From IMG/VR virus record IMGVR_UViG_3300020109_000047, positions 1 to 40,092 of that record: a stretch of DNA of 40,092 bases; one strand, written 5' to 3'. Shown in pieces: positions 1,230 through 32,825 of the stretch. The stretch comes from a virus. Position 1 is the first letter of the stretch. Each line of letters opens with the position of its first letter. The notes below the pieces were generated by a model. It did not search any database and was not told where the DNA came from. It was given only the letters and a program-made list of their open reading frames with translations. The position numbers and the translations under genes are program-made.

Positions 1230-1787
1230 ATGAAATATCTAATAACAGAAAAACAAGGATCCAGACTGAAAAGTCAACTTTCACAATCATTTGATGAAAT
1301 TGGTTTTATTAATACAATCGATAGATACAGATTATCAATACCTCAACTTGATAAAATTTATAGAAATTCAAAATTACCAGAATTTAGTTGTGATGATTTA
1401 AATGAAATTTGTTCTAAATTAATTTATGAAAGTGATGTCAAAAAACGGTACATTACAGGAGAATATTTTATTAGTTTAGATATGGACGATTTTGTAGGTT
1501 CAGTATATTTCAAAGTAACAGATAATGAAACAACAAATAGTCTTGATGGTTATGCAACACCTTATTGGGATGGTAAATGTTTTTTACCAATTGATACTGA
1601 ATATTACAATTTTACAGATGATGACGGTGAAATAATCGATGAAGAAATAACTGGTCAGTACTATAAACAAATAAAATTACCGACCAAATTTGAAAGTTTT
1701 CAGGCAATAGTAGATTGGATGGAAAATGATTATATACAGTATTTAATTAATTTTTGTAAACAAACCTTTGAAGAATTGGAATCTTAA
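1230..1787 (+). CDS. Hypothetical protein with short N-terminal LITE-type tag
   Basis: The 185-residue protein begins MKYLITEKQGSRLKSQL, a version of the LxTE.Q/S...L tag seen on many proteins here. The rest is acidic and aromatic (DMDDFVGSVYF, DGYATPYWDGK, DDDGEIIDEEITG) and unrecognised. It abuts the previous stop codon with no spacer. By inference from the tag it may be a head-associated protein. Confidence 0.8.
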   Translation: MKYLITEKQGSRLKSQLSQSFDEIGFINTIDRYRLSIPQLDKIYRNSKLPEFSCDDLNEICSKLIYESDVKKRYITGEYFISLDMDDFVGSVYFKVTDNETTNSLDGYATPYWDGKCFLPIDTEYYNFTDDDGEIIDEEITGQYYKQIKLPTKFESFQAIVDWMENDYIQYLINFCKQTFEELES

Positions 1788-1790
1788 TAA

Positions 1791-1797
1791 TATTTAT
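1791..1797 (+). promoter_or_regulatory. TATTTAT promoter-like motif
   Basis: 4-base gap to the ATG at 1802. Confidence 0.5.
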
Positions 1798-1801
1798 CTA
1801 T

Positions 1802-1915
1802 ATGAAAAAAGAAGAAACAAAGCCAAGGAACAGAAAAAATCTTTCAAAAACACTTAAAAGAATTGAAAAAAATTCTGAAATCCTTAGAAAATATCAACAA
1901 GAACTGAAAAATTAA
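1802..1915 (+). CDS. Small basic protein, 37 aa
   Basis: ATG at 1802 gives a 37-residue, Lys/Arg-rich peptide (MKKEETKPRNRKNLSK...LKN) ending TAA two bases before the next ATG (1918). It has a TATTTAT motif 4 bases upstream, and the following gene is tightly spaced, which supports a real small gene. The amphipathic helix (LKRIEKNSEILRKYQQEL) has no known family. It could be a scaffolding or nucleic-acid-binding peptide, but this is not shown. Confidence 0.65.
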   Translation: MKKEETKPRNRKNLSKTLKRIEKNSEILRKYQQELKN

Positions 1916-1917
1916 TT

Positions 1918-2451
1918 ATGACAAAAATATTAGTAACGGAAGACCAATACCAAAGATTAATAAAAAGAATTACAGAAGAAGCTGCCGGTTATGACGACTA
2001 TAATGTTATGGCTCATCACGGCGGTACTTCTATGAAAGTATTGATTGATACTTTTACAGATTTATCACAAGTTCTTAGAAGTATCGGATATATGTTAAAA
2101 TCTGAAAATATTGAATATGTTGATTTAAAAGAAAATTTATATGAAGCAATTGATTTAATTTCAGAAATTAATTCGGCAATGGATATTGTTTTCAAAGATT
2201 TTACAGAAAAAGAATTAATTAGACTAGGTAAAATTTTACACAGAAAACTAGAATCTTATCAAGAAAAAATTAGAATAATGCTTAATATGGGTAAAGAATT
2301 AATAACAAAAGAAACAATCATTGATAAACTTTTTGGCTTAACAATGAATGTTTATAGAGCTATGACAGATTATGCAGCCGAATTAAAAGTCACAGACATT
2401 AAATTTCAAATAAGAATTGATAAAGGAAGCCCAAAAACCGATTTAAACTAA
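1918..2451 (+). CDS. Hypothetical helical protein with N-terminal tag
   Basis: The 177-residue protein starts MTKILVTEDQYQRLIKRI followed by TEEA, one of the clearest examples of the shared tag, with VTE and ITE sites about 14 residues apart. The remainder is mostly helical (DTFTDLSQVLRSIGYMLKSE; LGKILHRKLESYQEKIR). No enzymatic motif is seen. It follows a 37-residue gene by 2 bases and so is probably co-transcribed with it. Confidence 0.82.
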   Translation: MTKILVTEDQYQRLIKRITEEAAGYDDYNVMAHHGGTSMKVLIDTFTDLSQVLRSIGYMLKSENIEYVDLKENLYEAIDLISEINSAMDIVFKDFTEKELIRLGKILHRKLESYQEKIRIMLNMGKELITKETIIDKLFGLTMNVYRAMTDYAAELKVTDIKFQIRIDKGSPKTDLN

Positions 2452-2470
2452 TTTTTTTGGTTTTATAACA

Positions 2471-2477
2471 TATTTAT
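2471..2477 (+). promoter_or_regulatory. TATTTAT promoter-like motif
   Basis: Sits inside TATTTATAAATA, which also reads TATAAATA; 15-base gap to the ATG at 2493. Confidence 0.5.
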
Positions 2478-2492
2478 AAATAAATTAAAATT

Positions 2493-3815
2493 ATGAGTTA
2501 TTATAGAAGATTAATCGAAGAATCTGAAAAACAAAGAATTTTGGGTCTACACAATAGAGTTAAAAAAAATCCAACAACACGATTATTGAAAGAAGGTCTT
2601 TATGATTTCCCAATATGTGTTAGAAATGCTAACGGTGGAAAAGTAAATAACATACAATTACCACAAAAGGCTTTAAATTTTTTATATGAAAAAATAGGAT
2701 ATAAAGGATCTACAATGTTTGAAGCGGTTGTTGTAAATGACCCAAGTACAAATTACACCTATTATTGGTTACATACACCATCTAAAATGGTTGTTAAAGT
2801 ACCCAATGGAGATGGTGAAGTAATAATTCAATCATATAGTTGTAACTGTAAAAAAGTTATAAGTCGAAAATATGATGGTCAAAATAAAGAAGATATCCCT
2901 TGTTCTGGAAATAACCAACAAGGTAATCAACAAGGTGGTGGTAAAGACACTAATTGTAAAAGTAAAACTCCTTACAACGCTATTACCGATATGGGTATGA
3001 ACTTTAAAGATGTTCAAGCTAAATGGATTGCGGCAAATTGTAACGGAACCACTCCTTGTATCAAAGGTGACGCAACAACCAATATAAATTTAAGAAACGC
3101 TTTTTGTGACGGAACTTGGAAACCAGATGGTTCTAAAAGTGATTTTCCATTACCAGGTGGTCAAATACCTGGTGGTGATGTTAAACTTCCAGATATAAAA
3201 GAAATACAAGCATGTTTTGGTAAAGTACAACTTGATATGCCATTTGAATGTAAAGGAACTGTAATGTCTACAACAGGAAATGTAGTAGGTGGTGGTTGTA
3301 TTAATGCTTTAATTAAAAGATTTGAAGAAATGCCACAAAAAATGTTAGAAGTAATTCTTTGTATTTTTGCTAAATTACAAATTCCTGAAACACTTTTAAG
3401 AATAGTAATTGACTATGTTACTAAAAATCCACAGATTATTATTGACATTATTAATAAGAATCCACAGATTATTATTGACATTATTACAAACAATCCTCAA
3501 TTAATAATTGATATTATAAGTAAAAACCCTCAATTAATAATTGATATTATTACTAAAAATCCAGATATCATAAAACAAATACCTATCGATAAATTACCAG
3601 ATATTTTAAAACAAATACCTATTGAAAAATTACCAGAAATTATTAAAATACCTGGTATTCCAATCCAGTTACCGGGTGATAAAACTATTGAAGATATATT
3701 AAAAGAATTTCCAGGAATGCCGATAGGTAAAATACCTGGTTTATTACCAGGGGATAAACAATATTCAGAAGAATATATAACACCAACATTTGAACAAAAA
3801 CCTAAAGCTGATTAA
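2493..3815 (+). CDS. Tagged protein with 11-residue NPQIIID tandem repeats
   Basis: The 440-residue protein starts with the tag MSYYRRLIEESEKQRILG and continues to RLLKEG near residue 35. A Cys-containing central region (CNCKK, CSGN, CNGTTPC) includes a Gln/Gly linker. From about residue 312 there are four 11-residue repeats of the type NPQIIIDIITK, then KLPDILKQIPIEKLPEI-type units and a Pro/Gly-rich end. The repeats predict a regular helical or solenoid rod. No known enzyme domain is seen. A virion fibre-like or head-packaged structural role is inferred from tag and repeats. It is followed by a paralogous-start gene at 3828. Confidence 0.85.
   Translation: MSYYRRLIEESEKQRILGLHNRVKKNPTTRLLKEGLYDFPICVRNANGGKVNNIQLPQKALNFLYEKIGYKGSTMFEAVVVNDPSTNYTYYWLHTPSKMVVKVPNGDGEVIIQSYSCNCKKVISRKYDGQNKEDIPCSGNNQQGNQQGGGKDTNCKSKTPYNAITDMGMNFKDVQAKWIAANCNGTTPCIKGDATTNINLRNAFCDGTWKPDGSKSDFPLPGGQIPGGDVKLPDIKEIQACFGKVQLDMPFECKGTVMSTTGNVVGGGCINALIKRFEEMPQKMLEVILCIFAKLQIPETLLRIVIDYVTKNPQIIIDIINKNPQIIIDIITNNPQLIIDIISKNPQLIIDIITKNPDIIKQIPIDKLPDILKQIPIEKLPEIIKIPGIPIQLPGDKTIEDILKEFPGMPIGKIPGLLPGDKQYSEEYITPTFEQKPKAD
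3426..3557 (+). repeat. Four 33-bp in-frame tandem repeats
   Basis: The 33-base units encode NPQIIIDIINK, NPQIIIDIITN, NPQLIIDIISK and NPQLIIDIITK. The first two are nearly identical at base level, as are the last two, which suggests stepwise duplication within the gene. Confidence 0.9.
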
Positions 3816-3827
3816 AAATTTATAGTT

Positions 3828-4655
3828 ATGAGTTATTATTTGAAAAATTTATTAAGTGAGTCTGAAAAAAGACGAATTTTAAATCTTCACGAAAATCGTA
3901 GAAAATACGAATGGAAAGGTTTGATTATGGAAGCAACTGAAGAAGAGGCTAAAAGTTTTTTTGAAAAAAGAAAAACAAAAATGAAAAATTTTCCACCAGT
4001 TGGAACTGTTATTGATTACGACGGGAAGGGTAATTTTGCATATAAAACAATAGACGCTAATAATAATCCATTATATTTATTTGCAGATGGTACAGCAAAA
4101 AATTCTACTGGTAAAACAGCTACAAATAGATGGTACGGTCAATTAAGTCCAGACGAAGTGGCCCTTGATAAAATGCCCACACTAAAACCAACTCTAATAG
4201 AACCTAAAATAGACTTAAATACATTAAGTTCAACACCTAAAGGTTCTGAACCCCAAGGAATGATGACAGGTAAAGAAATTAATCAAAGTAGAAGAGAGTT
4301 AAAAAGAAAAATAAAATCTGCAAAAAAACAATTTAAAAGTGAAAATAAAAAAAATAAACAAAGTTGTTTAGCCTACTTTAAAAATTGGGTAAACGATTGG
4401 AACCAGAAGGATGAAGCATTACAAGTTATTGTTAAAGAAACATCACCACAATACAATAGTTACGTAAAATTTTTAAGTTCTTGTTGTGATATTTTGAATG
4501 AAAATGGAAAACAACCAGCTCTTTATGGGCTTTGTTCTACTAAAGGTGTAGAACCAGAAACAATCGTTAAGTCTTATAAAACGAAAACAGGTGGTTCTGG
4601 ATTGGGTGCAATGGAAATAGAAAATCAAACCTATGAAAATTTAGGATTACAATAA
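3828..4655 (+). CDS. Tagged hypothetical protein
   Basis: The 275-residue protein opens MSYYLKNLLSESEKRRILNL and reaches GLIMEAT at about residue 35. The start is homologous to that of the preceding gene, although the bodies differ. A Lys-rich middle (RRELKRKIKSAKKQFK) precedes a Cys-containing region (SCLAYFKNW, SSCCDIL). No family is recognised. The gene ends at a bidirectional terminator shared with the convergent FKBP gene. Confidence 0.82.
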   Translation: MSYYLKNLLSESEKRRILNLHENRRKYEWKGLIMEATEEEAKSFFEKRKTKMKNFPPVGTVIDYDGKGNFAYKTIDANNNPLYLFADGTAKNSTGKTATNRWYGQLSPDEVALDKMPTLKPTLIEPKIDLNTLSSTPKGSEPQGMMTGKEINQSRRELKRKIKSAKKQFKSENKKNKQSCLAYFKNWVNDWNQKDEALQVIVKETSPQYNSYVKFLSSCCDILNENGKQPALYGLCSTKGVEPETIVKSYKTKTGGSGLGAMEIENQTYENLGLQ

Positions 4656-4657
4656 AA

Positions 4658-10616: not shown

Positions 10617-11168
10617 TTATTGTCCTTTTACAAGATTAACACACTGTTTAAGATACTCTTTAGCTCTTGGTGATGGTGTGTATTCATCATCTTTTGTTTG
10701 TAGGTTTAAAATACGTTCAATATCCTTAACAAGTTCTGTACCGTGTTCATTTTCTTTATATAGTTCAATGATTTTATCCATAGCCTTATGACACTCACCA
10801 GTTGTTTCATCGTGATAGTTTTTATTTCTAAAACGATTTAGATTATTCATCATATCATAAGCTAAATGAGCACCACCATCTTTAACGTCTTTAAATAGTC
10901 TTATGTTATTTAAGATTCCTAGAGTATCGACCATTGAATTCACACCCATTCTTCTTTTATTAACACCAGGGGCATATTTAACGTATTCATCGGCTTGACC
11001 AACAATTTCGTCAAGAAGAATCATATTTTCTGGAACACATCTAGGTTTAGGTGGTTCTTTCTTTTTATTTTCTCTTTGTTCACCACCCATCGGAACATCG
11101 CCATTTTCTTTAATTACCTTTTCAATTAAAGCAACAAGCTCACTTTCTGTTAATTTTATTTTTTTCAT
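10617..11168 (-). CDS. Tagged hypothetical protein
   Basis: The 183-residue protein starts MKKIKLTESELVALIEKV followed by IKEN, a model example of the shared tag with LTE and IKE sites 16 residues apart. A short basic, Pro-rich linker (KKKEPPKPR) leads to a helical domain (LLDEIVGQADEYVKY; MVDTLGILNNIRLFKD). No enzyme motif is visible. It has its own TATTTAT motif and terminator, so it is a single-gene transcript. Confidence 0.84.
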   Translation of the reverse strand: MKKIKLTESELVALIEKVIKENGDVPMGGEQRENKKKEPPKPRCVPENMILLDEIVGQADEYVKYAPGVNKRRMGVNSMVDTLGILNNIRLFKDVKDGGAHLAYDMMNNLNRFRNKNYHDETTGECHKAMDKIIELYKENEHGTELVKDIERILNLQTKDDEYTPSPRAKEYLKQCVNLVKGQ

Positions 11169-11246: not shown

Positions 11247-11855
11247 ATGTTAGACAATATAATAAAAAGAGTTATAAATGAAGAAATAAACCACCCAATG
11301 ATTCTTACAGAATCGGTAAGAATTTCAGAAAATCTGAAATACCACTTGGATAATCAAATACCATTATCTGAAACTGTTTTTAGGATTTTTTCACCCGCAT
11401 ATTTTGAATTAATTAATGAAGTGAGAAAACTTTATAATAATGGTTTAATGGATATTAACGAAGAAGATTTGTGGTTAGTTGAAAGTAACTTAGGTGAAAG
11501 TGTTACATTAGATAATGGAAAAAAAGTTTGGTTAGATGTTCCATTTGAAGTAAAGGAATCAATTAATGAGGCCGAACATAGAGGTAAAAAAGTAAAGCTT
11601 GGAAGTCCTTTTAGAACACCAGGTGGGCCAAAGAAATTTGCGGTATATGTTAAAACTCCAGGTGGCGGTGTGAAAAAAGTAACATTTGGAGATCCGAATT
11701 TAAGAATTAAAAACGCAAATAAAGGAAGAGCAAAATCATTTAGAGCAAGACACAATTGTGACCAGAAAAAAGATAGAACCACAGCTGGGTATTGGTCTTG
11801 TAATGTTGGTAGATATGCCAAAAAATTAGGTCTTAAATCATCCAGAAATTGGTAA
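11247..11855 (+). CDS. Phage virion-type protein with C-terminal RARH..C domain
   Basis: The 202-residue protein starts MLDNIIKRVINEEINH and carries an ILTES site, a tag-like beginning. The C-terminal half has KLGSPFRTPGGPKKFAVYVK and KKVTFGDPNLRIK, then SFRARHNCDQKKDRTTAGYW with SC. I know this pattern from uncharacterised C-terminal domains of structural-region proteins in aquatic phages, sometimes fused to prohead proteases. The conserved Cys and His residues could bind metal. ATG 11247 is preferred over the in-frame TTG two codons upstream. The protein lies upstream of another virion-family protein. Confidence 0.8.
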   Translation: MLDNIIKRVINEEINHPMILTESVRISENLKYHLDNQIPLSETVFRIFSPAYFELINEVRKLYNNGLMDINEEDLWLVESNLGESVTLDNGKKVWLDVPFEVKESINEAEHRGKKVKLGSPFRTPGGPKKFAVYVKTPGGGVKKVTFGDPNLRIKNANKGRAKSFRARHNCDQKKDRTTAGYWSCNVGRYAKKLGLKSSRNW

Positions 11856-11861: not shown

Positions 11862-13094
11862 ATGGGACCATACGAAAGATTTATTAACCCAAGATATGTA
11901 AAAATATTCAATCATTTCTTAAAAGAAGTATGTGAAGCGGCTATTGAAAACAAATATCACACGAAGGTAAAGCTTAAATTATATGGTATTGGTGTAAGAC
12001 CAAAAAGTTCTGTTTATGAAGAAATACCAAAAGAAGAATTATTAGATTCACAGACAAAAGTTGATTTTTTTATTGATTCTGAACCTAGTAGATTTAGTAG
12101 ATTTAATGTTGTTGAAGATTTAATACTTCTTGAAGGTAAATCTTTCCTACAATTACAAAATGCCGACTATATGGGTTATATACCAGAATATTTTCGTATT
12201 AGAATACATTTCAATAACAGACCATTATTTCCTTTAGATTATGTTAGTGAAGATAGTTTAAATGAAGAAGTTGAGCCTTCTGAAAGGGCAGTTAAAAACA
12301 TTTGTGATGCAAAAAAATTCTGTGAAGCACAAGGAAAAATTACATTTGGACAATTAAAAGAAATTGTAACAAACGCAAAAGCAAAAAGACTATATCAACA
12401 TATTGGTGAAGGTGGCTTTAAAGCAACACTGAGATTACTTCCTTGGTTTTTTCCACAATTAGCAATTGCTGGTTTTACTGGATCAATACTAAGAGCTTTT
12501 AATAAAATATTCAGACCTGGGATTGAAGAAACAACTGGATATAAAACTTGGTGGGGTAAAACTATAATGAAATTGTTTGACTTGGTTGAAGGGGAATTGG
12601 GAATAGGTGACCCGTTATCAAAAATATTTTTTATTTCAGATGGATTAATGACAATGCTTGACGATAAATTAAAAGTTAAGTTTGCCAGACATATTGCTGA
12701 AATTGCTAGTGAAAAACCAGACGATGAAGAAGTTCCAGAATACTTTGTTGAAAATGAATTAAGGAAATATCTAAATGAAAAGTTTTTATTAGACCCACCA
12801 TTAAGTCCAAAAGAAATTAAAAAGAATGACGACTTACCTTTCAAAGAAGTTAAAGAAAATGGAATTAAAACAAGACTTTTCAAAGAAAATGTAAGTAATG
12901 GGGAATTAAAATGGCACTTTGATAAACAAGATAGAAAAGTTAAAGTTGTTAAATCAAATAACTGGATGTTACAGATGGATAATGATATCCCAAAACCATT
13001 AAAGGAAGGACAAACAATATTTATTCCAAAAGGTGTTTATCATAGAGTGATAAAAGGTCAAGGTGATTTAATTGTAAAAATAAAAGAATTGTAA
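11862..13094 (+). CDS. Conserved phage protein with C-terminal cupin-like segment
   Basis: The 410-residue protein has a middle block (about 145-310) with LYQHIGEGGFKATLRLLPWF, AIAGFTGSILRAFNKI, GYKTWWGKT and KIFFISDGLMTMLDDK, then VPEYFVENELRKYLN. I associate this block with a widespread but uncharacterised family of aquatic tailed phages. The end (IFIPKGVYHRVIKGQGDLIV) is cupin-like, but only one metal-type His is visible, so enzymatic activity is doubtful. It follows 11247-11855 by 6 bases, and its stop overlaps the next ATG, so the three genes form an operon. Confidence 0.82.
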   Translation: MGPYERFINPRYVKIFNHFLKEVCEAAIENKYHTKVKLKLYGIGVRPKSSVYEEIPKEELLDSQTKVDFFIDSEPSRFSRFNVVEDLILLEGKSFLQLQNADYMGYIPEYFRIRIHFNNRPLFPLDYVSEDSLNEEVEPSERAVKNICDAKKFCEAQGKITFGQLKEIVTNAKAKRLYQHIGEGGFKATLRLLPWFFPQLAIAGFTGSILRAFNKIFRPGIEETTGYKTWWGKTIMKLFDLVEGELGIGDPLSKIFFISDGLMTMLDDKLKVKFARHIAEIASEKPDDEEVPEYFVENELRKYLNEKFLLDPPLSPKEIKKNDDLPFKEVKENGIKTRLFKENVSNGELKWHFDKQDRKVKVVKSNNWMLQMDNDIPKPLKEGQTIFIPKGVYHRVIKGQGDLIVKIKEL

Positions 13095-20148: not shown

Positions 20149-20227
20149 ATGAATAACAAGAGCCTTTTATTAGAAAAAATTTTATTGAATATGAAATATG
20201 ATTCTAAAAAAACTTCGTCTGAAAATA
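20149..20227 (+). repeat. 5' cassette repeat, copy 2
   Basis: Partner of 19128-19206. Confidence 0.9.
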
Positions 20228-21112: not shown

Positions 21113-22702
21113 ATGAATAAAAAATTAATTTCAGAAGAAATCCTAAGAATCCGTGAAATGATGGGTTTTAGTAGTTATAACAAAAGATTTCTGACAGAAG
21201 GTGTAGGAAAGTTGTTAGCAGATGAGTCAATGCCTGGTGGTATTGTGGATGATTTGGCATCAATGGGTAAAACAGTTGATGATATATTTTCATACTCAAC
21301 AAAACTTGCAAATGACTTCCCAACAAAAACATTTGATTCAATTATTGATAGAGTTGCAAAAGAAAACACTATTGATAGTGCTTCTGTTACCAATGAAATG
21401 ATGAGAAAATTCATAGCAACACAACCAGGGCTTATGGATGAAATTATGACTGTTGCAGCAAAAATTGCAGATGAAAGTACAACATTAAAAATTAGTGACG
21501 TTTCTTTTCAAGATGTTTTTACAAAAGCAGGTTTAGAAGAATTTCCAGAAAATTTAAAAAATACTTTAGCAACAAAAATAACTGATATAAATAAAGATAC
21601 GACAAAAAAAATTTTAGACCAATTTGAAAAATTACTTGATGGAAATATAAAAATAAAAAATACACCAGAAGCAAAAGAATTATCAAATAAAATAAGAAAT
21701 AAAAGAGCCGAAATTCTTGATTATGAAGATTATAAAACTAAGAAAAGCTCAAATGTTGACGTTGCAAAAAATGTTACAGAAAAAGAAGATGGTTTTGGTG
21801 AAGGTGATTTCCAAGACTTCAAAAAAAATTGGACAAGAGAAGATGTTGGTGGTGTTACTGACCCAAATCAATACTCTGTAGTTAAAAATAGTGCTGAAGA
21901 AACATTCAAAAATTTACCAGAAACATTTAACCCTTCAGAAATAAAAAGGGGTAGAGTAAATTCATATAAATTTATACAAAACGACGAAAGTACAAATTTC
22001 CAAGATGTTTTAAGATCTAGAACACAGATGGAAGTTACGTTACCAAACGGTAAAAAAACATTAATGTATTCTTCATCTGGCTCAAATGTTGGAACAACAG
22101 GAAAAGAAGCTGGAGAATGGTTTTGGATTCCTGGTTTTGCAAGAAGTGGTTGGTATATAAAAACAACCGAAAGTGTTGCATACACTAAAGGTGGTAATCA
22201 ATATATGACAGACTTTGCAAAATATTTAGAAAATAATGGATATAATGGTTTATCTAAAGAAGGTACCACACCAAGTTCAGTTTCTAAAATAGCTTCAAAT
22301 GTAACACCAACATCAACAAATAGATTACAATCAATAGTTGGTGATACAAGTAAAATAAATTGGTCAGTTATTAATAATGCTAAAAATGTAGAAGATTATA
22401 ATAAATTTATTGATGACGCAATAGCAACAAATAATTATATGAAAATATCAAGAGCTGGTTTTGAAGAATATGGAATTCCTAATTTTAGAAAACATTTAAT
22501 GGATTTAGATTTAAAAGCCGGCGATAACTCAATTGCTAGACAAAATGGTTCACAAAATGAATTATATAAAATGAATAGAGAAATTTTTGATTTATATCAA
22601 GCCGAAGGTGGAACATCTGATACTTTTATGGATTGGTTAACAAAATTACCAGAAGATCAACTGGAAGATATATATAACTATATAAACTCAAAAAAACAAT
22701 AA
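21113..22702 (+). CDS. Tagged long helical protein, paralogue A
   Basis: The 529-residue protein starts MNKKLISEEILRIREMMGFS and reaches KRFLTEG (about 25-31), a B-type tag bracketed by ISE and LTE. Residues about 32-205 are homologous to the protein at 24965 (DESMPGGIVDDLASMGKTVD; DIFSYSTKLANDFPTKTFDS) and are helical. The rest diverges (EFWIPGFARSGWYIK-like segment GEWFWIPGFARSGWYIKTTE). No enzyme motif is recognised. Size, helices and tag fit an internal head or ejected protein, which is an inference. Confidence 0.82.
   Translation: MNKKLISEEILRIREMMGFSSYNKRFLTEGVGKLLADESMPGGIVDDLASMGKTVDDIFSYSTKLANDFPTKTFDSIIDRVAKENTIDSASVTNEMMRKFIATQPGLMDEIMTVAAKIADESTTLKISDVSFQDVFTKAGLEEFPENLKNTLATKITDINKDTTKKILDQFEKLLDGNIKIKNTPEAKELSNKIRNKRAEILDYEDYKTKKSSNVDVAKNVTEKEDGFGEGDFQDFKKNWTREDVGGVTDPNQYSVVKNSAEETFKNLPETFNPSEIKRGRVNSYKFIQNDESTNFQDVLRSRTQMEVTLPNGKKTLMYSSSGSNVGTTGKEAGEWFWIPGFARSGWYIKTTESVAYTKGGNQYMTDFAKYLENNGYNGLSKEGTTPSSVSKIASNVTPTSTNRLQSIVGDTSKINWSVINNAKNVEDYNKFIDDAIATNNYMKISRAGFEEYGIPNFRKHLMDLDLKAGDNSIARQNGSQNELYKMNREIFDLYQAEGGTSDTFMDWLTKLPEDQLEDIYNYINSKKQ
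21218..21343 (+). repeat. Intragenic duplicated block, copy A
   Basis: 126 bases aligned without gaps to 25067-25192. A 58-base stretch (21269-21326 against 25118-25175) is identical by my reading. Confidence 0.88.
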
Positions 22703-22711: not shown

Positions 22712-24913
22712 ATGATGGAAAAACAAATATTATTAGAACTTAGAAGAATTCAAGAACTAATGGGTGTTAAAAAAATAATTAATGAATTTATTATAGACAC
22801 TGGAACTGGTGCAGTACCAAAAGCTAGTCCTGGTACTGGTATTTACGATGAAAAAGGAAACGAAGTTGAAGGAACTGACCCCGATGATGTTAGGTACCCA
22901 ACGTATGATTTGGGTCTTCCTCAATTTATGGAACCAACTGAAGCTGGTAGATTTATTAACGGTTTTAATTCACCACCAACTTTAATTATGGGGCCAAAGG
23001 ACGGTTCAGGCCCAAAGGTTTGGTATATTACATCATCAACAAAAATTGAAGATATCTTACCACCGGACGTAAAAAGTAAAATACAAATTGGTACTGTCAC
23101 AAATAAAGATGGTCAAGCCATTGAAAATCAAAAATATATTGAAATTGATGCTACATCCGATGAAGAAAAAACCGATAACACTACAGTAGTAAGTAATAAA
23201 AAAATCAAACTATGTTTACCAACACAAGAATGGTTTGATTCTTATGCTAACTTAGGTTTAGCCTATATGTTTGAAAATCCAAAAACAAGTAAAAAATACG
23301 CACTATTATTTGGAACTTGGGGAATAATGAGACAAACTGGACCTAAAAAAGAAGCGATGACTGGTTATGAAGCGGCTAAAGCTTGTTATGGTGCAGACAA
23401 TGGTTGGGAATTCAAAGTAACAAATGTATTAGGACCAACTGGTAAAGCTTTGGCCCCTTATCAAGAAGTTGGTGGAACAAAATTTTGGGATCCATCAGAT
23501 AAAGAAATGTTTGATACAAGGTCTGTTAATGATACATTCTGGGATAAATGGGGTATTTTCATTGAAATTGCTGTTGGTGTAGCTGTTGCTATTGTCGCAC
23601 CTTGGGTTGCTACCTTTTTAATTAGTCTAGCACCTATGGTTGGTGGTGCTTTTGCTGCAATTGTTGGTGGTTTACAGGGGGTAGCATATGGTGGAACACG
23701 ACTTCTAGTAGTACTTGTTGAAATTATAGCGGAAGGGACACTTCTGGCCCCATTAATTAAAAACCAATTAAGTCGAGGAGATGAAGTTGGTGCTGGAATC
23801 ACGGTAATATTTTGTTTTATACCTTTTTTAACAGAATTAAAACCAATTCATAATTGGTTAAAAAATGGTATTAGCGGTAGCTTTGGTAAAGCTGAAATAA
23901 AAGGTTTATTAGATGAAGTTGCAAAGGTAGATGGTGGATGGAACACAATTATGAATGTTTGGTCTGATTCACAAAGAAATTTATGGGAAGCTACCTTATC
24001 TCAACAAAATAAAGAAATATTTCAAGTTGGGATGACTGTGGTTAAAAACATAAGTGAAAAAGGAGCCGATGGTTCTAAAGACTTTGGGAAAGCTGTTGCT
24101 GATTACATGAATCAAAACGCTGACAAGGTTTTAAAAAATGCTAGACAGTTAGGATATACACCAATTGAAAAGGCAGTTGAAGATATTACAACGACTATAG
24201 TAACTATGCCTTTTTCTTTTACATCATTATTTACACAAACAGGATTAAAAGCAAGTCTAGCTAGGGGAATTATGACTTTTGCACCTGTTGCAATTGCCCT
24301 ACAACAAATAGGTAAAAAAATAAAAGAACAATTTCCAAACGAACAAGAGCAAAAACTTAAAGAAATGGAAGAAAAAGTTACAAAAGCTTTTGAAGACTTG
24401 GGAAATAATCCTGGTCAAGCTTATCAATTTGAATTGATGGCTACTTTATATCAAAAATTAGGTTGGTTAGATAAAGTTGGTGAAGTGACAAATTTAACAA
24501 TAGACAAAATTCTTGATAACCCAGAATTAAAAACGATGTACGATAATGAAGTTAAAACAACAATTGCTGAGCTTTTAAATAAAGAAGCAATAAAGCGAGC
24601 AAAAGAAGAAGAAAAAAAAGCTGCGGAATATTTATTATCAACTAGTGCCCAACAACAAATTGCAACTATTCAAACACTAATTATAATTAATCAATTACAA
24701 ACTAATATATTACCATCATTACTTGAAGGTCTTGGATATAAAAATCTTAAATTTGTTGACCCTTGTTGTGCAAGTTATTCCCAAACAGAAGACGCTCAGG
24801 AATTTATAGGAGAAAACGATGTTAAAGGTTTTATCGTATTTCCTAAAACAATGAAAGAAAATGATCCGTTTAAAATTGTTGTAAATGGTCAACAAGTTTG
24901 GCCAAAAGTCTAA
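22712..24913 (+). CDS. Large tagged protein with central membrane-like segment, ejection-protein candidate
   Basis: The 733-residue protein starts MMEKQILLELRRIQELMGVK and reaches INEF (B-type tag). A beta-rich N-terminal region (60-250) is followed by a long hydrophobic section, about 285-380 (IEIAVGVAVAIVAPWVATFL; PMVGGAFAAIVGGLQGVAYG; GITVIFCFIPFL). A long helical part (420-690, KEEEKKAAEYLLSTSAQQQI) comes next, and the end includes CCASYSQTEDAQEF. A large, mostly helical phage protein with membrane-spanning helices resembles internal virion proteins that cross the envelope during DNA entry. That is analogy, not homology that I can show. Confidence 0.82.
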   Translation: MMEKQILLELRRIQELMGVKKIINEFIIDTGTGAVPKASPGTGIYDEKGNEVEGTDPDDVRYPTYDLGLPQFMEPTEAGRFINGFNSPPTLIMGPKDGSGPKVWYITSSTKIEDILPPDVKSKIQIGTVTNKDGQAIENQKYIEIDATSDEEKTDNTTVVSNKKIKLCLPTQEWFDSYANLGLAYMFENPKTSKKYALLFGTWGIMRQTGPKKEAMTGYEAAKACYGADNGWEFKVTNVLGPTGKALAPYQEVGGTKFWDPSDKEMFDTRSVNDTFWDKWGIFIEIAVGVAVAIVAPWVATFLISLAPMVGGAFAAIVGGLQGVAYGGTRLLVVLVEIIAEGTLLAPLIKNQLSRGDEVGAGITVIFCFIPFLTELKPIHNWLKNGISGSFGKAEIKGLLDEVAKVDGGWNTIMNVWSDSQRNLWEATLSQQNKEIFQVGMTVVKNISEKGADGSKDFGKAVADYMNQNADKVLKNARQLGYTPIEKAVEDITTTIVTMPFSFTSLFTQTGLKASLARGIMTFAPVAIALQQIGKKIKEQFPNEQEQKLKEMEEKVTKAFEDLGNNPGQAYQFELMATLYQKLGWLDKVGEVTNLTIDKILDNPELKTMYDNEVKTTIAELLNKEAIKRAKEEEKKAAEYLLSTSAQQQIATIQTLIIINQLQTNILPSLLEGLGYKNLKFVDPCCASYSQTEDAQEFIGENDVKGFIVFPKTMKENDPFKIVVNGQQVWPKV

Positions 24914-24964: not shown

Positions 24965-26446
24965 ATGAAAGAACGTTTACTTATAGAAGAATTAGTTAGA
25001 ATCAGAGAAATGATGGGTTTTAGTGGTTATAATAAAAAATTATTATTGGAATTTGGTCGTCAATTAGCAGATGAGGCAATGCCTGGTGGTATTATGGATG
25101 ATTTGGCAGCTTTAGGAAAAACAGTTGATGATATATTTTCATACTCAACAAAACTTGCAAATGACTTCCCAACAAGAACATTTGATTCAATTGTAGAAAA
25201 AGTTGCTGACGAAAATGGTGGAATTTCACCAGGTTCTGTTACTAAAGAAATGATGCAAGAATTTTTTGCTAAATCAGGTGTCTTTGATGATTTGACAGAA
25301 GTTGCAACAAAACTTGCAGATGAAAAAGTTGGTGGTTATATGACAGATGTAAATTTTACAAACGCGTTTAACAATGCTGGTCAAGGTGGATTACCAGGTA
25401 GTGTACAAGTTGTTGTAAAACAAAAAATTACCGCTCAGAATAAAAGTACAACAGAATCAATTTTAGAACAATTCAGAAGACTTATTGAAAGTGACACAAC
25501 TTTAAAAAATTCTGACGCTGGTAAAAAAATGTTGGATACAATTAATAATAAAAAGAAAGAAATTGCAGATTTTGATGCAAATGAAGTAAGAAAATCAACA
25601 AGTACTGGTGGAGTTGGTGGAAGAGCAGGTACCGGACCAACGCAGGCGGAAATTGATGCCGCGATGGACGCATTAACAAATAGAATTAGTAATATTGATA
25701 CAACATCTGAAAGTACAATTATGAGTAGTTTGAATTCAATTTTAGACGAGCTTGAAACAAATGGTTTAATTAAATACCCAAAAGGTGTTACTAAAGAAAT
25801 GGTTGTAAAAGATTTAACAGCAGCAATTCAAAGACTTTCAAACAACGCACAAGCCGCTGAAGCGGCATTTAATAAACTGACAACAGCTGAACAAGCAGAA
25901 TGGGCACAAAAAGTAATAAAAGATTTAGAAAATGCTAGAGCTAAAGTTGAAGGTGACCCTAATAAACCTGGTTGGTTTAAAAGAACGTTTTTTAGTTGGT
26001 TAAATGAAACAGCTGAAGTTGGTAAAAAAGGAAATAAAATTGAACCAATAAAAATTGTAAAAGGATTTTTTAAAATTTATTTTTTGATAGGGGGGATTTC
26101 TTTTGCTGTTTGTGCTATTAAAAATATATGGGACTTTAAACAAGAAGGTGTTGAAGGTATTAATAGTGGAAAAGATTTTGCAGATTGTTTATTCACCATT
26201 GCAACTTGGGCTCCAGATGGGATAGTTTACCTATTAAATTTAGGTGAGGAAGTTTTAGATACCGATTATGAAAATACCCCCGAATCTTTTAGAAAATGGG
26301 CTGACACTAAAGAAGTAAAAGATAAATATAAGTATATTGATTCTGGATATGACGCAGATGGAAAAACATACTATTTTAAATTTAATGATGGTACTGTTAA
26401 AGATGTTAAATTTGACGCTGATAATCAAACTTGGGTAGTTGAATAA
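24965..26446 (+). CDS. Tagged long helical protein, paralogue B
   Basis: The 493-residue protein starts MKERLLIEELVRIREMMGFS and reaches KKLLLEFG, the same tag as in paralogue A. Its first 200 residues are homologous to 21113-22702. The C-terminal half is different: a helical segment (about 225-330), one membrane segment (about 362-378, KIYFLIGGISFAVCAIKN), and a small beta end (GYDADGKTYYFKFNDGTVKD) that resembles PepSY/KTxx-type repeats only loosely. Shared front plus variable back suggests a modular cargo family. Confidence 0.82.
   Translation: MKERLLIEELVRIREMMGFSGYNKKLLLEFGRQLADEAMPGGIMDDLAALGKTVDDIFSYSTKLANDFPTRTFDSIVEKVADENGGISPGSVTKEMMQEFFAKSGVFDDLTEVATKLADEKVGGYMTDVNFTNAFNNAGQGGLPGSVQVVVKQKITAQNKSTTESILEQFRRLIESDTTLKNSDAGKKMLDTINNKKKEIADFDANEVRKSTSTGGVGGRAGTGPTQAEIDAAMDALTNRISNIDTTSESTIMSSLNSILDELETNGLIKYPKGVTKEMVVKDLTAAIQRLSNNAQAAEAAFNKLTTAEQAEWAQKVIKDLENARAKVEGDPNKPGWFKRTFFSWLNETAEVGKKGNKIEPIKIVKGFFKIYFLIGGISFAVCAIKNIWDFKQEGVEGINSGKDFADCLFTIATWAPDGIVYLLNLGEEVLDTDYENTPESFRKWADTKEVKDKYKYIDSGYDADGKTYYFKFNDGTVKDVKFDADNQTWVVE
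25067..25192 (+). repeat. Intragenic duplicated block, copy B
   Basis: Partner of 21218-21343. Confidence 0.88.
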
Positions 26447-26470: not shown

Positions 26471-28891
26471 ATGATTTTAGGTAATTTTAGATATTGTATT
26501 AAATCTGGTGGGTCTTGGCGAGACGCAAAAGATAAGTCAGAATATGACACAGTAAAGGCTGCAAATTCAAATAACGCAAAAAAATATTCAAAAGAATATA
26601 ATTGTGATGGAAAAATAGCACCAAGTCCTCCAAGTCCTCCAAGTCCTCCAAGTCCTCCAAGTCCTCCAAGTCCTCCAAGTCCTCCAAGTCCTCCAAGTCC
26701 TCCAAGTCCTCCAAGTCCTCCAAGTCCAAGTACTAGTTATAGTGTTTGTCCTGGACCAACATATTCAAGAGGTTGTAAAGATAGCGGAGCGCCAAATCCG
26801 AATGGTATAATATATAAGGTACAAGGATGTATTGGAGCAAAACAAGATAGTTTATTTGGTCCAAAAACAGAAACAGCTCTTAAACTAAAAACTGGAAAAA
26901 CAACATTTACTGATGATGATTTTTCTACAATATGTAAAACAAGTGGTGGTGATAACACTGGTGGTGATAACACTAGTGGTGGACAAGGAATGAAACCAGA
27001 AGATCAAAAGAAATTTTTTGAAAAACTAGAAAGAACAGGTAGAATTTATGATGGGTATATACAATATTTATCACAAGAAACCGACATTTCAAGTAAAGAC
27101 GGAAAATCAATTTATAGTTGTTGTTATATTAAAAAATTTGAATGTTCAAGAAATCAAGAAGGAAAAATAATATCAATTGGAAATGGCGTACCAATTTCAA
27201 GTAAAAGCGACGTTAAATTTTCTGAAGATTATATTTATATTATTTTATTTCCAGATTTAATTTATGGTTATATGACAAAAAGAGGTTCTATTGCACTTAA
27301 TGGTTATAAATTAACTTGGACACCAGATGATCCTAACTCTCAAAATATTTTCTTAGAATCAAAAAGAAGAAATATTAAAGAACAAAACATTGATTTTTCT
27401 GGTCTTCTTGGTAGTAATTGGAATTTTAATGCTGGTGGTGGAAATCGAGGTTCTGGAACTAATCAACAACAAGGAAATCAATCTGGAAGTGGTAATCAAC
27501 AACAAGGAAATCAATCTGGAAGTGGTAATCAAATTCAAGGAAAAAAATATGAAATTGACTATGACAAACTATGTGCTTACGTAAACCCAAAAAGAGACGA
27601 GGCCATACAAATCATTGAAGGAATGAGGGATATGAAGATTCCAGTTTTCAATATTCCATTAGTTAACGCAGAAGGTAAGAAAGAACTACAACAGACAATT
27701 GATGAATTAAAAAAAGTAGATTGTAAAACAGTTTGTGAACCAGGGAATTTAAAAATTTTAGCAGATGGAAAAGCTATGATTTTAGATAAACAAAAAAATG
27801 ACCCAAATGCTAAATATGTTGAAAACAAGTTAGCAAGATTATTGGTTTTAATTGAAGAAATTGAAAGTGAATGTAAAAGAATAGATAGGGAAAAAAGAAA
27901 CTTTGAATCACAAAATCAAGGTGGTAGTCAAGGTTCTGGAACTCAAGGGTCTGGTAGTAGTCAAGGTACTGGTAGTAGTCAAGGATCTGGTGGTACAACT
28001 GTTGTTACTGGAAGTAGAAAAGACGAATTAAGAAAAATGTTTGGTTTTGTCGATGAAAATGGTGATATTATACCACCAAAATCAAGAATTAGTAGAATGA
28101 ATAAAATACCAGAAAAAGGTGTTGCTGGTTTTGGAAGTTTACAATATGCAATTGATAACTATAATGCAAGATCTGAATGGTTTGAAGATTATAACGAACT
28201 AATGGATACTGAAGGGTTATCACAGTTTAAATTGAAATTCCCAGAAGATTTTGAAGATGAAGATTATGCGGGAATGATAATTAATAAGGAAAACTATTCT
28301 GAATTAACCCCATTGAAAGCAGGTTCAAAAACCCAATATAAAAGATTTACTTTTGGTGACTTTTTGGAAACTAGCTCAACCTTACCAATTTTCCAGACAC
28401 AAGCGGGTACTGGTGAATATAATGTTGAAAAAACAAAATGTATTGGTAACCCAAGAGAAAAATTAATTAACTATCTTACAGCAGCATTTTCAGCGTCAAG
28501 AAAGTTTAGAGGTAGTAATGAATTAGATTATTTTGAAAGGTGTCTTGCGACCAAAAAATTACAAAATGCTTTTGACGATGAAGGTCCGCTAAGAAAAAGT
28601 GATTTTGAAGAAGTTGATACAGATAGGTTACCTTTTGGTGTTTTTAATAACAAACTTAATCTAAAAGAAATTATTAAATTGTTAAGAGGTGAAGAAGTTA
28701 ACGGTGTTAGAATTAATAATTCAAGTTTGATAGACAAAAACTTTTATAGAGAAGGTTTTGCGGTTTACGAATCAGTAAGAAAAACAGTTAAGAAAAATTT
28801 AAGTGAAGCAATTACTAAAAAGAAAAATTTAAAACTTACAGAATCTACTTTAACTAAAATTTTAACAAATATAAAAAGAAAAGGATACTAA
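26471..28891 (+). CDS. Large protein with SPP repeat, peptidoglycan-binding-like domain and C-terminal tag
   Basis: The 806-residue protein starts MILGNFRYCIKSGGSWRD. A Ser-Pro-Pro linker (about 51-86) follows, then a PG_binding-like unit (about 93-155: KVQGCIGAKQDSLFGPKTET, ALKLKTGK), an unrecognised domain, and Gln/Gly/Ser linkers (NQQQGNQSGSG twice). A second helical domain and a further Gly/Ser linker (about 485-515) lead to a C-terminal domain. It ends KKNLKLTESTLTKILTNIKR plus KGY, which is the shared tag placed at the C-terminus. It starts 25 bases after the previous stop. A multi-domain virion protein contacting the wall is a reasonable inference. Confidence 0.82.
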   Translation: MILGNFRYCIKSGGSWRDAKDKSEYDTVKAANSNNAKKYSKEYNCDGKIAPSPPSPPSPPSPPSPPSPPSPPSPPSPPSPPSPPSPSTSYSVCPGPTYSRGCKDSGAPNPNGIIYKVQGCIGAKQDSLFGPKTETALKLKTGKTTFTDDDFSTICKTSGGDNTGGDNTSGGQGMKPEDQKKFFEKLERTGRIYDGYIQYLSQETDISSKDGKSIYSCCYIKKFECSRNQEGKIISIGNGVPISSKSDVKFSEDYIYIILFPDLIYGYMTKRGSIALNGYKLTWTPDDPNSQNIFLESKRRNIKEQNIDFSGLLGSNWNFNAGGGNRGSGTNQQQGNQSGSGNQQQGNQSGSGNQIQGKKYEIDYDKLCAYVNPKRDEAIQIIEGMRDMKIPVFNIPLVNAEGKKELQQTIDELKKVDCKTVCEPGNLKILADGKAMILDKQKNDPNAKYVENKLARLLVLIEEIESECKRIDREKRNFESQNQGGSQGSGTQGSGSSQGTGSSQGSGGTTVVTGSRKDELRKMFGFVDENGDIIPPKSRISRMNKIPEKGVAGFGSLQYAIDNYNARSEWFEDYNELMDTEGLSQFKLKFPEDFEDEDYAGMIINKENYSELTPLKAGSKTQYKRFTFGDFLETSSTLPIFQTQAGTGEYNVEKTKCIGNPREKLINYLTAAFSASRKFRGSNELDYFERCLATKKLQNAFDDEGPLRKSDFEEVDTDRLPFGVFNNKLNLKEIIKLLRGEEVNGVRINNSSLIDKNFYREGFAVYESVRKTVKKNLSEAITKKKNLKLTESTLTKILTNIKRKGY
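26621..26728 (+). repeat. 9-bp microsatellite encoding Ser-Pro-Pro
   Basis: About twelve head-to-tail units of CCAAGTCCT, essentially perfect except the last. It forms an in-frame flexible or polyproline linker, and its length can change by slippage without frameshift. Confidence 0.95.
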
Positions 28892-31600: not shown

Positions 31601-31640
31601 TTTATTATGTTTTAATTTTTATGTTTTATAGAAAAATCAT

Positions 31641-31820
31641 ATGTACGTAATTGTAAAACACATCAAATTAGACGAAAACAAAAAAAGAGTTCCAGTTATA
31701 CTACTTAACAGCGAAAGTGAAATTTGGGAATTTGATACCGAAAAAGAAGCAGAAAAAATGAGAGAGATTTTTGAATTAAATTCAGATTCTGGTCATAAAT
31801 ATCAAGTTAAAAAGATTTAA
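31641..31820 (+). CDS. Small hypothetical protein, 59 aa
   Basis: ATG 31641 gives MYVIVKHIKLDENKKRVPVI and ends SGHKYQVKKI. It has a beta-beta-alpha-beta look (VPVILLNSESEIWEF, EKEAEKMREIFELN) typical of small phage proteins. Its stop is 5 bases before the tRNA. No family is recognised. Confidence 0.75.
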   Translation: MYVIVKHIKLDENKKRVPVILLNSESEIWEFDTEKEAEKMREIFELNSDSGHKYQVKKI

Positions 31821-31825
31821 TATGC

Positions 31826-31899
31826 GGTCCCGTAGCATAATTGAATAATGCAACTCACTTCTAATGAGTAGATTCCAGGTTTGAATCCTGGCGGGACTA
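31826..31899 (+). tRNA. tRNA-Arg (TCT)
   Basis: A full cloverleaf is readable. Acceptor GGTCCCG / CGGGACT (with a G-U end pair), D-arm GCAT / ATGC, anticodon stem ACTCA / TGAGT with loop CTTCTAA (anticodon TCT), T-arm CCAGG TTTGAAT CCTGG. No CCA is encoded. It reads AGA, which appears to be the main Arg codon in these genes, so it would help translation of the phage. Confidence 0.92.
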
Positions 31900-31914
31900 C
31901 ACAAAAAAAATATT

Positions 31915-32022
31915 ATGGAAGATATATTTGAACAAATACATAATGAATTTATAAATTCTGAAGATTATTTTTCATATCTTCAAGATATTTATTCTTATGA
32001 AGAAAAGAATACGACTAACTGA
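31915..32022 (+). CDS. Possible 35-aa peptide
   Basis: ATG 31915 gives MEDIFEQIHNEFINSEDYFS and ends EEKNTTN with TGA at 32020-32022, overlapping the next gene by 26 bases. It sits between the tRNA and a tagged gene whose promoter motif lies inside it. It may be real or only the leader of that gene. Confidence 0.35.
   Translation: MEDIFEQIHNEFINSEDYFSYLQDIYSYEEKNTTN
31986..31992 (+). promoter_or_regulatory. TATTTAT promoter-like motif
   Basis: 4-base gap to ATG 31997. Confidence 0.45.
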
Positions 32023-32434
32023 AACTGAATTAATAAGTCTAATTAAAAGAATTCTTAAAGAAGAAAAGTATTCCGAAGAAGATATTAAGTACACCCACCC
32101 AATAACAGGTGAAGCCTGTAAAATCAAAGTAGCTAGAAATAAAGTAACTGATATGGAAAATAGACAATATGGATCAATCCTTGTCTGTATTGATGAAGAA
32201 TATGGTGATGAAAGAATTAAAGCCGAACTTCCAGTAGATGGTCCTACACCAGAAGAAGTTAGTGATTTTATATGTGAAAATATAGAAAGAACATTTGAAA
32301 TTCTGGATGATATGTTAACACACGAAGAAGAAGAGCCAATATCAGAAGAAGTTTATAGCCGAAGGTGGGACATTGTAGACCAGCCAATTGTTTGTTCAGA
32401 CAAACCAAAAAAGAAAAAAAGTTGGGAATACTAA
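31997..32434 (+). CDS. Tagged hypothetical protein
   Basis: The 145-residue protein starts MKKRIRLTETELISLIKRIL with KEE, the typical tag with LTE and LKE sites 16 residues apart. A compact alpha/beta region follows (CKIKVARNKVTDMENRQYGS; ILVCIDEEYGDERIKAELPV) and a Lys-rich end (CSDKPKKKKSWEY). No family is recognised. Confidence 0.82.
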   Translation: MKKRIRLTETELISLIKRILKEEKYSEEDIKYTHPITGEACKIKVARNKVTDMENRQYGSILVCIDEEYGDERIKAELPVDGPTPEEVSDFICENIERTFEILDDMLTHEEEEPISEEVYSRRWDIVDQPIVCSDKPKKKKSWEY

Positions 32435-32443
32435 ATAATATAA

Positions 32444-32450
32444 TATTTAT
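32444..32450 (+). promoter_or_regulatory. TATTTAT promoter-like motif
   Basis: Inside TATTTATAAATA; 12-base gap to ATG 32463. Confidence 0.5.
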
Positions 32451-32462
32451 AAATAAAAAATT

Positions 32463-32825
32463 ATGAAAAAAGTAATTAAACTAACAGAAAGAGACCTTAC
32501 AAGACTTATTAAAAGAATTGTAAAAGAAAGTGAAGAAGAAGTCAAACAAGAGTTAGATATGAAAAATAAATTGGATGATATCTTCTTTGGTTATGATAGT
32601 GCAAATATTTTTACACCATCTGGTGAATTTGGATACCTTTCACAAGAAAAAAGATTAAAAAAAGAAATAACACCAAAAGGAAGAAAAGAAAGAATCCAAC
32701 AAGTAATTGATGGTTTGGAAGAATACATTGAATACTTACGAAATGAAAAATTGGGTGAAGAAGATACCTGGATTGAAAATCCAAAATACGATGAAGTTTG
32801 GGGTGGAAAAAATGATGAATATTAA
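32463..32825 (+). CDS. Tagged hypothetical protein
   Basis: The 120-residue protein starts MKKVIKLTERDLTRLIKRIV with KES, again the tag (LTE, VKE). The remainder is charged and helical (KEEITPKG-like KRLKKEITPKGRKERIQQVI; DGLEEYIEYLRNEKLGEEDT). No known domain. It is followed by a G+C-richer stretch with hairpins and a tRNA-like sequence. Confidence 0.82.
   Translation: MKKVIKLTERDLTRLIKRIVKESEEEVKQELDMKNKLDDIFFGYDSANIFTPSGEFGYLSQEKRLKKEITPKGRKERIQQVIDGLEEYIEYLRNEKLGEEDTWIENPKYDEVWGGKNDEY

Follow-up and report, generated by a model that had tools for sequence, protein, structure and literature searches.

Why would proteins with unrelated bodies, encoded on one stretch of phage DNA, start or end with one of a few short peptides? 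The question is raised by IMG/VR virus record IMGVR_UViG_3300020109_000047, 40,092 nucleotides that were analyzed in full and are called here the window. An initial annotation had listed fifteen window proteins whose N-termini carry tags bracketed by [LI]xE sites, and had proposed that these tags sort a family of cargo proteins into the capsid. In phage T4, the prohead protease gp21 cuts after L/I-x-E, and propeptides serve as capsid targeting sequences (PMC9026906; here and below, statements on published systems rest on the excerpts available of the papers cited). Our analysis supports the capsid-cargo proposal: the gene for an S77 protease, a motif in the major capsid protein (MCP), scaffold-like tags and a shared upstream element all agree with it. 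We consider it likely that the tags are T4-like capsid targeting sequences used on an unusual scale, a reading in which packaging and cleavage are predictions. The sequences themselves establish that the tags are portable, end sharply at a glutamate and are swapped between homologous bodies, that a protease gene and a capsid motif go with them, that some resemble the scaffold, and that an upstream DNA element is shared.

Tag sequences, their boundary and their carriers

A longer contig of the same phage, G002 (127,688 bases, IMG/VR), contains the window: its bases 9002-49093 align with the whole window, with 3 mismatches in 40,092. Relatives were grouped in two sets, clade 1 (G002, G008, G009, G010 and G011; 1044 proteins) and clade 2 (Flavobacterium phage immuto and G018-G021; 786 proteins). 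Counts are approximate, since genes were called by a simple longest open reading frame (ORF) method; proteins under 80 amino acids were excluded (under 100 in the G002 shuffle test below). The tag type names A, A', B, C and D are labels coined in this analysis.

Building a tag profile and counting its carriers had been suggested with the initial annotation. A type A profile grown from four window peptides, used at a threshold of 12 bits, matches the N-terminus of 44 of the 1044 clade-1 proteins, two C-termini and 2 of 5027 internal windows. These internal windows omit part of each protein; a rescan of every position, which covers all, gives 44 N-terminal, 2 C-terminal and 4 other matches. One of these four (G002 4657) has an in-frame Met directly before the tag, and its start was probably miscalled. 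Clade 2 has type A at three N-termini and one C-terminus among its 786 proteins. With the tag removed, the 44 clade-1 carriers form 39 body clusters (BLAST).

Besides the start Met, the most informative columns of type A are its two putative P1 glutamates (3.11 and 3.42 bits); information is 1.06 bits one residue after the second and at most 0.62 from there on. Glutamate occupies position 16 in 40 of the 44 tags, and [ILV] position 14 in 41. The type A segment ends at a gp21-type L/I-x-E motif, the predicted cut site. Among the 19 best-scoring type A tags, codons differ at 41% of the positions with identical residues, so it is the peptide sequence that is conserved.

A degenerate DNA pattern for the type A core, which stops before the second glutamate, has 143 matches in at least 120 IMG/VR loci (99 in a subset of 80 of these loci). 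All 143 matches listed lie at most 12 residues from a Met, that Met being the first of the open frame in 138, and all 143 have a glutamate at the second-glutamate position, outside the searched pattern. Bodies among the matches listed number 142 and form 67 clusters, the largest of 21 members. A collection of 84,980 bacterial and archaeal genomes contains no exact match to the pattern; tblastn of short tag peptides against the phage collection gave no match, or a few at E-values of 2 to 8.

The starts of all 15 listed proteins were read again. The statement that nearly all of these proteins have two or more [LIV]xE sites holds in a looser form: 14 of the 15 have such sites 10-30 residues apart within the first 48 residues, and 11 have them at the 14-30 spacing first given. 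Spacing is shorter, 12-13, in the proteins starting at 1918, 31997 and 32463; the 1230 protein, weakest of the 15, has a single site in its first 48 amino acids. Plain [LI]xE pairs were dropped as evidence for tags because their chance frequency is too high: two sites occur in the N-terminal 40 amino acids of 26 of 123 G002 proteins, versus a mean of 10.8 and a maximum of 21 in shuffles, and in 37 of 568 internal segments. Strict [LIVF][LIV]xE pairs are found at 14 of 123 G002 N-termini, versus a mean of 1.6 and a maximum of 7 in 1000 shuffles (internal, 6 of 568). Pooled over clade 1, 67 of 1044 N-termini carry a strict pair versus about 9 predicted from internal rates. By genome, the counts are 14/132 (G002), 7/100 (G008), 20/321 (G009), 7/212 (G010) and 19/279 (G011), and in clade 2 10/178 (immuto), 5/181 (G018), 5/177 (G019), 5/163 (G020) and 4/87 (G021); internal rates predict 0.5 to 3.9 per genome in either clade.

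Two tag types had been described. A and B kinds do exist, but there are more than two types, and C-terminal tags had been overlooked. We distinguish LTESDL..RIVKRVI (A), ESEKxxI..LH/LYG (A'), IITESQYK (D), R[IM][RK]E[ML]MG (B) and FxQLIES.MGNVKPLI.E (C), which suggests at least four or five sequence types. Two window proteins, 35691-36770 and 26471-28891, carry C-terminal tags. The tags of the window are as follows.

1230..1250, plus strand: partial tag, type D-like (MKYLITE), with one site only
1918..1977, plus strand: N-terminal tag, type A (ILVTE..RITE); 29.8 bits with the type A profile, one of its four seeds
2493..2594, plus strand: N-terminal tag, type A' (LIEESEKQRILGLH..LLKE), sites at 9, 10 and 34
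3828..3932, plus strand: N-terminal tag, type A' (LLSESEKRRILNLH..LIME)
11106..11168, minus strand: N-terminal tag, type A (KLTESELVALIEKVIKE); 34.5 bits, profile seed; tagged homologues in G009 and G011
11247..11312, plus strand: N-terminal tag, short A form (IIKRVINE..MILTE); the protein matches phrog_7595, and its immuto homologue is without the first part
13094..13168, plus strand: N-terminal tag, type A' (FIITESEKKHIKNLYGLLVE), on an L,D-transpeptidase-like body
15392..15481, plus strand: candidate tag (LILE..LFKE), absent from the earlier list, on a protein with HEIRH
16961..17011, minus strand: N-terminal tag, type D (IIISESQYKKILLE); the look-alike G009 127196 starts MKIIITESQYKKILLE
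19128..19223, plus strand: N-terminal tag, B-like (LLLERILLNM..IILNE); two L004 genes at the matching place start with type A
20149..20244, plus strand: N-terminal tag, B-like (LLLEKILLNM..IILE); type A instead in the L011 homologue
21113..21199, plus strand: N-terminal tag, type B (LISEEILRIREMMGF..FLTE); below 9 bits with both scaffold profiles, scaffold likeness by eye only
22712..22786, plus strand: N-terminal tag, type B (ILLELRRIQELMG..IINE); scaffold profiles give 13.5 bits (clade 2) and 6.6 (its own clade)
24965..25051, plus strand: N-terminal tag, type B (LLIEELVRIREMMGF..LLLE); below 9 bits with both scaffold profiles
28829..28888, plus strand: C-terminal type A-like tag (LKLTESTLTKILTNIKRKGY) of the 26471-28891 protein, without a closing site and below the 12 bits of the type A profile
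31997..32062, plus strand: N-terminal tag, type A (RLTETELISLIKRILKE); 34.8 bits, profile seed
32463..32528, plus strand: N-terminal tag, type A (KLTERDLTRLIKRIVKE); 43.8 bits, profile seed
36714..36767, plus strand: C-terminal type B tag (LKLNEELNRIKDLMKKIL) of the 35691-36770 protein; 23.2 bits with the scaffold-only profile, the phage's own scaffold ending ..LIESKTYENPQFLRMKDLMTKIK

A near-identical copy of the 13094 tag sits on a different, 150-aa protein in locus L014. The body of the 15392 protein has a weak likeness to Peptidase_M91 (E 0.0012, below the cut-off). In L004, the protein at the place corresponding to 26471-28891 ends LKLTESALTKILTNIKRKGY; the window protein itself, of 806 aa, contains a proline-serine repeat (PPS) run at about 26620-26735. 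In G008 (85764-87111), the same MKDLIKKILKEET tag opens three adjacent genes. The neighbors 19128-20147 and 20149-21096 have, besides their N-terminal tag, a common C-terminal end EITFQLSGGGL, a second terminal element; the corresponding L004 genes end GITFQLSGGL and GIQFQMSGGL. The VanY-type carboxypeptidase at 5328-5936 and its neighbor at 5945-6520 share by eye an N-terminal SL..K[IL]VS[YF]LT.G[IL]N, possibly a further tag type.

Prohead protease, capsid protein and phage lineage

The absence of a prohead protease had been named beforehand as an argument against capsid sorting. It fails because the longer contig of the same phage encodes a T4 gp21-type protease (PF03420 Peptidase_S77, 81 bits versus a cut-off of 27). 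The gene lies between those of the MCP and of the portal, the latter assigned by position and likeness rather than by a profile. An S77 gene is present in three of four records (G001-G003, the same phage) and absent from the 50-kb nearest relative, G004; of five further records, one has it (G008) and the four without it are contigs of 20-50 kb. It is found in 9 of 9 large clade-1 and 7 of 7 clade-2 contigs selected by their capsid gene, counts that are not independent because the selecting gene lies near the protease gene. Among 20 contigs selected by the tag alone, 11 have S77, as do 5 of the 6 that reach at least 120 kb. The C-terminal end of the protease is itself conserved by clade (about LDLMK[KR]LSDYLGK or LDSIINDILRA; L018 and MCP loci) and is perhaps a targeting end of its own.

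The N-terminus of the clade-1 MCP contains LINE/A (the slash marks the cut) in 78 of the 78 readable cases from 80 loci, the T4 gp23 counterpart being FLTE/A. In clade 2, ENQAK is followed by [ILV]xE in 74 of the 77 MCPs read, and the motif was not found in the other three. We predict, from alignment, that LINE/A is the maturation site of the MCP and thus has the same motif as the tags.

The MCP of G002 is Gp23 (PF07068, 246 bits). A gene for ribosomal protein S21 (PF01165, 32.4 bits, cut-off 27) lies on the minus strand of G002 at 62292-62477, among head genes and outside the window. By this reverse-strand S21 gene and the Gp23 capsid protein, the phage belongs with the T4-like bS21 group; the same layout is described for bS21-encoding phages with predicted hosts among Bacteroidetes of freshwater lakes (PMC9723584). 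The nearest capsid proteins in the phage collection are those of an uncultured 484-kb phage, Flavobacterium phage immuto, Microcystis phage Mel-JY01 and Rhodothermus phage RM378, the reference Far-T4 phage (PMC4360716). Hosts of the group are thought to be Bacteroidota. The window protein at 8982-9548 has a CHU_C type IX secretion signal domain above the Pfam cut-off, which fits such a host; two small proteins adjoining it have N-termini that look signal-like by eye.

Tag exchange, scaffold likeness and the upstream element

Tags of different type were found on homologous bodies: the window 20149 protein and L011 16016 (73% identical over the alignment), G009 95498 and G011 248141 (61%), and G010 216449 and G011 251189 (56%). 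In G019 151736, MIQLLKIAKQILLE precedes GGNVF, and the immuto homologue begins, just behind a stop codon, with MGGNVF. Such swaps suggest that the tag types are functionally equivalent. Two apparent tag losses (L004 7810 and G018 31948), which are start-codon artefacts or doubtful, were set aside, and the remaining swap comparisons, which are HVA1-like, low-identity or start-call cases, were not used.

The bodies had been called unrelated. Mostly they are, but those of 21113 and 24965 appear paralogous, and the proteins 19128 and 20149 are alike at both ends. Few of 58 scanned proteins (the tagged ones and two untagged homologues) belong to families: Pfam matches are phage lysozyme, a peptidoglycan-binding domain, LRR, and SET with a weak DHH match, and PHROGs matches are endolysins, an exonuclease and tape-measure families. 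The L,D-transpeptidase that the initial annotation had placed in the tagged set is likely to be one: the body at 13094 matches YkuD just under the cut-off (E 3.6e-4, 21.6 versus 23.4 bits), and its SSGCINLP stretch is conserved in three homologues. AlphaFold models of the 13094 and 35691 proteins, with a mean predicted local distance difference test (pLDDT) score of 41.7 and 41.9, were not used, and the 35691 protein has no PDB sequence match up to E 0.1. None of 44 homologues of tail or replication proteins, 24 tail, baseplate or fibre ones included, has type A or a strict pair. Two of 22 head-core homologues, both proteases, have a strict pair, too few for significance.

Some tags resemble the end of the scaffold protein. 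The scaffold gene, assigned by position as the gene directly upstream of that of the MCP, has a variable body and a nearly fixed C-terminal end. In clade 1, R-x-[KR]-D-[LI]-M occurs in the last 16 residues in 79 of the 79 loci with the gene (usually LIESKTYENPQFLRMKDLM.KIK); in clade 2, R-x-x-x-[LI]-A occurs in the last 18 residues in 75 of 75 (usually R[MWF]QKLAGI). In RM378, a B-type regular expression and inspection by eye found just the gene beside the MCP, ending RIKRLAGL. Profiles built from scaffold C-termini alone, one per clade, were used at a threshold of 18 bits. Seven non-scaffold termini reach it, six in clade 2 and one in clade 1, and none of 7863 internal windows does. The clade-2 cases, among 786 proteins and besides the five scaffolds, are five N-termini (immuto 25061 and 111675, G019 124994, 128276 and 129165) and one C-terminus (G019 134634). 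No N-terminus among the 1044 clade-1 proteins reaches 18 bits; besides the five scaffolds, the one C-terminus to do so is that of the window protein 35691-36770. All seven score 21-29 bits with the scaffold profile of their own clade and below 9 with that of the other. Immuto offers the clearest case, with a tag QILSEQFRRMQKLAGIITE and a scaffold end EIISEVSEQVSRWQKLAGIIK. The C-terminus of the window 35691 protein is KLNEELNRIKDLMKKIL, and KLNEE..R[IM]K..[MI]KKIL is kept in five other loci read (L398-L402).

A DNA element, ATATTTAT, was counted within 100 nt upstream of start codons in the five clade-1 genomes. It precedes 57 of 103 tagged genes (those encoding type A or strict-pair proteins, which must include some chance pairs), 24 of 44 structural genes (those with homology to head or tail genes of immuto), none of 20 replication or nucleotide gene homologues, and 145 of the remaining 876 genes. 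Where at least 50 nt upstream are free, the figures are 31/45, 13/21, 0/9 and 62/275. In tagged genes it lies 4-69 nt before the start codon, and 2% of random 100-mers contain it. Untagged neighbors within 3 kb have it in 78 of 334 cases (p 2.3e-9 versus tagged genes). The element was picked on tagged genes as the best of 593 8-mers, which makes the p-value of that choice a selected one; the structural and replication figures are unselected. The reverse sense, ATAAATAT, is not enriched (7/103 tagged genes versus 26/334 neighbors). We propose ATATTTAT as a candidate promoter element of these phages, and we infer that genes with it are co-expressed with virion genes. It was not adopted as a T4 late promoter because its sense is opposite to TATAAATA, which we take to be the T4 late-promoter word. 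Upstream of tagged genes, TATAAATA is enriched in clade 1 (23/103 versus 60/940) and not in clade 2 (0/30 versus 22/754).

Proposed capsid loading and competing explanations

Under the capsid-targeting reading, each tag would be a short segment, probably a helix, with affinity for the scaffold core or the inner shell of the prohead. Cargo expressed late would be co-assembled inside the prohead, and the gp21-type (S77) protease would cut after [LIV]xE at the tag boundary and free it. The freed cargo would ride in the head and presumably be ejected with the DNA. The several tag types would serve one job and be exchanged between bodies. Cargo with a scaffold-like tag would take scaffold-type binding sites, because its tag matches the scaffold C-terminal peptide.

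Alternatively, the tags might be uncut helices docking to a phage assembly site or structure, with LxE reflecting helix composition. Such docking would account for tag-like N-termini with one site or none (1230, 17363) and for the two C-terminal window tags, both of which end without a closing site, but we regard it as unlikely: besides the start Met, the boundary glutamates are the most conserved residues of type A, and conservation falls right after the second. Furthermore, that glutamate is present in every IMG/VR match listed although it was not searched for, and the same motif recurs at the predicted site of the capsid protein. Peptidoglycan-active proteins are common in tails, and some tagged bodies are of this kind (YkuD, lysozyme, peptidoglycan-binding); together with the one scanned protein that matches tape-measure PHROGs, this might suggest routing to tails or baseplates instead of heads. 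The absence of type A and strict pairs from the 24 tail, baseplate and fibre homologues, a small sample, and the scaffold matches and S77 motif, which point to the prohead, make tail routing very improbable.

A peptide kept through a 41% difference in codons is hard to reconcile with a 5' DNA or mRNA element (promoter, translation enhancer) or a recombination hot spot in which the peptide is incidental. The tags are mostly 5' and share an upstream DNA element, yet C-terminal tags exist and ATATTTAT also precedes untagged structural genes, so that we give this explanation hardly any credence. Least credible of all is that the tagged proteins are diverged paralogues retaining an N-terminal domain. 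The pair 21113 and 24965, judged by eye, the three adjacent G008 genes and the IMG/VR cluster of 21 bodies among the matches listed would fit common descent; set against them are the 39 body clusters for 44 carriers, the 67 for 142 bodies among the matches listed, and the exchange of tag types on one body.

Several observations weigh against capsid targeting itself. HTVC008M has a prohead protease, no type A tag among 160 proteins and few strict pairs (4/160 versus 2.2 predicted), so that a protease does not imply tags. S77 was not found in 9 of the 20 tag-selected contigs, which may be fragments, one of them of 137,752 bases. A profile search for a type A donor among head-region and head-core proteins found none convincing; it gave one 23-bit match inside the G008 29751 protein. 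Eight clade-1 N-terminal tags judged B score 3-17 bits with their own scaffold profile, three of them better with that of the other clade; the window tags at 21113 and 24965 stay below 9 bits with either, a level reached by 63 of 12,312 internal 32-mers. The strong clade-2 scaffold matches are confined to two of five genomes (immuto and G019), and ATATTTAT precedes the MCP gene itself in only 19 of 79 loci. An exonuclease-like candidate carrier (G010 187184, strict pair only) and the single tape-measure match among 58 scanned proteins are no obvious head cargo. The lack of type A in tail and replication homologues (0/44 versus 43/933) is not significant by itself. Finally, the literature read yielded neither virion proteomics nor results on cleavage or binding in these phages.

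Terminal packaging signals are known from T4 internal proteins, SPN3US ejection proteins and P1 DarB (PMC9026906, PMC5694885, PMC9024508). As here, a short propeptide stands at a terminus of T4 internal proteins (IPI, IPII, IPIII and Alt) whose bodies have diverged, and T4 combines a gp21-type protease with the L/I-x-E motif, Alt being processed at both ends (PMC9026906, PMC5694885). Unlike T4, of which head genes 20-24 and 67/68 were read for comparison, the present phages have many more candidate carriers per genome and several sequence types; most tags have a second site, and some match the scaffold C-terminus. In phiKZ and SPN3US, several head proteins likewise have propeptides cut by a gp21-related protease (PMC5694885, PMC9026906), but their motif is A/S-x-E, and several of the propeptides are longer than 100 residues, against [LIV]xE and about 15-35 residues here, which places the tags outside that class. 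P1 DarB likewise has an N-terminal packaging signal, its first 30 residues sufficing to bring a reporter to the capsid; for P1 Dar N-termini the available part of the source reports no consensus and no separate scaffold (PMC9024508), whereas the present tags follow a strong consensus and in some cases match the scaffold. In engineered P22, cargo on truncated scaffold (residues 141-303 or 238-303) gets packaged (PMC9962691); here the arrangement would be natural. Four tag strings had no match in the literature text searched, whose coverage excludes most subscription journals and leaves novelty unproven, and within the same coverage no scaffold-derived cargo tag of a natural phage was found by title or abstract start.

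More tentatively, we may hypothesize a general system of head cargo loading, in which interchangeable N- or C-terminal signals each mimic a different prohead binding peptide (the scaffold C-terminus for B, another for A), are carried by tens of proteins per genome, including peptidoglycan enzymes, and are released by one protease. The scores below 9 bits of the window tags at 21113 and 24965 with both scaffold profiles make this system less probable. If it exists, the engineered fusion of cargo to scaffold in P22 has long had a counterpart in natural phages; P22 scaffold-fusion loading is not known to have a gp21-type release step. The tags would offer a direct test of scaffold mimicry as a natural loading route, as well as portable, testable peptides for loading proteins into large capsids. 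About twenty residues would assign unannotated phage proteins, without recourse to fold, to one class of likely capsid cargo. The tagged set yields candidates for ejected effectors of a widespread phage group, such as anti-defence proteins, host take-over proteins and cell-wall enzymes. T4 IPIII is reported to be active in the host cytoplasm and to permit growth on one E. coli strain (PMC9391042).

Elsewhere in the window, few convincing ORFs are seen at about 33900-34950 and 36800-38700, and a tRNA-Arg lies at 31826-31900.

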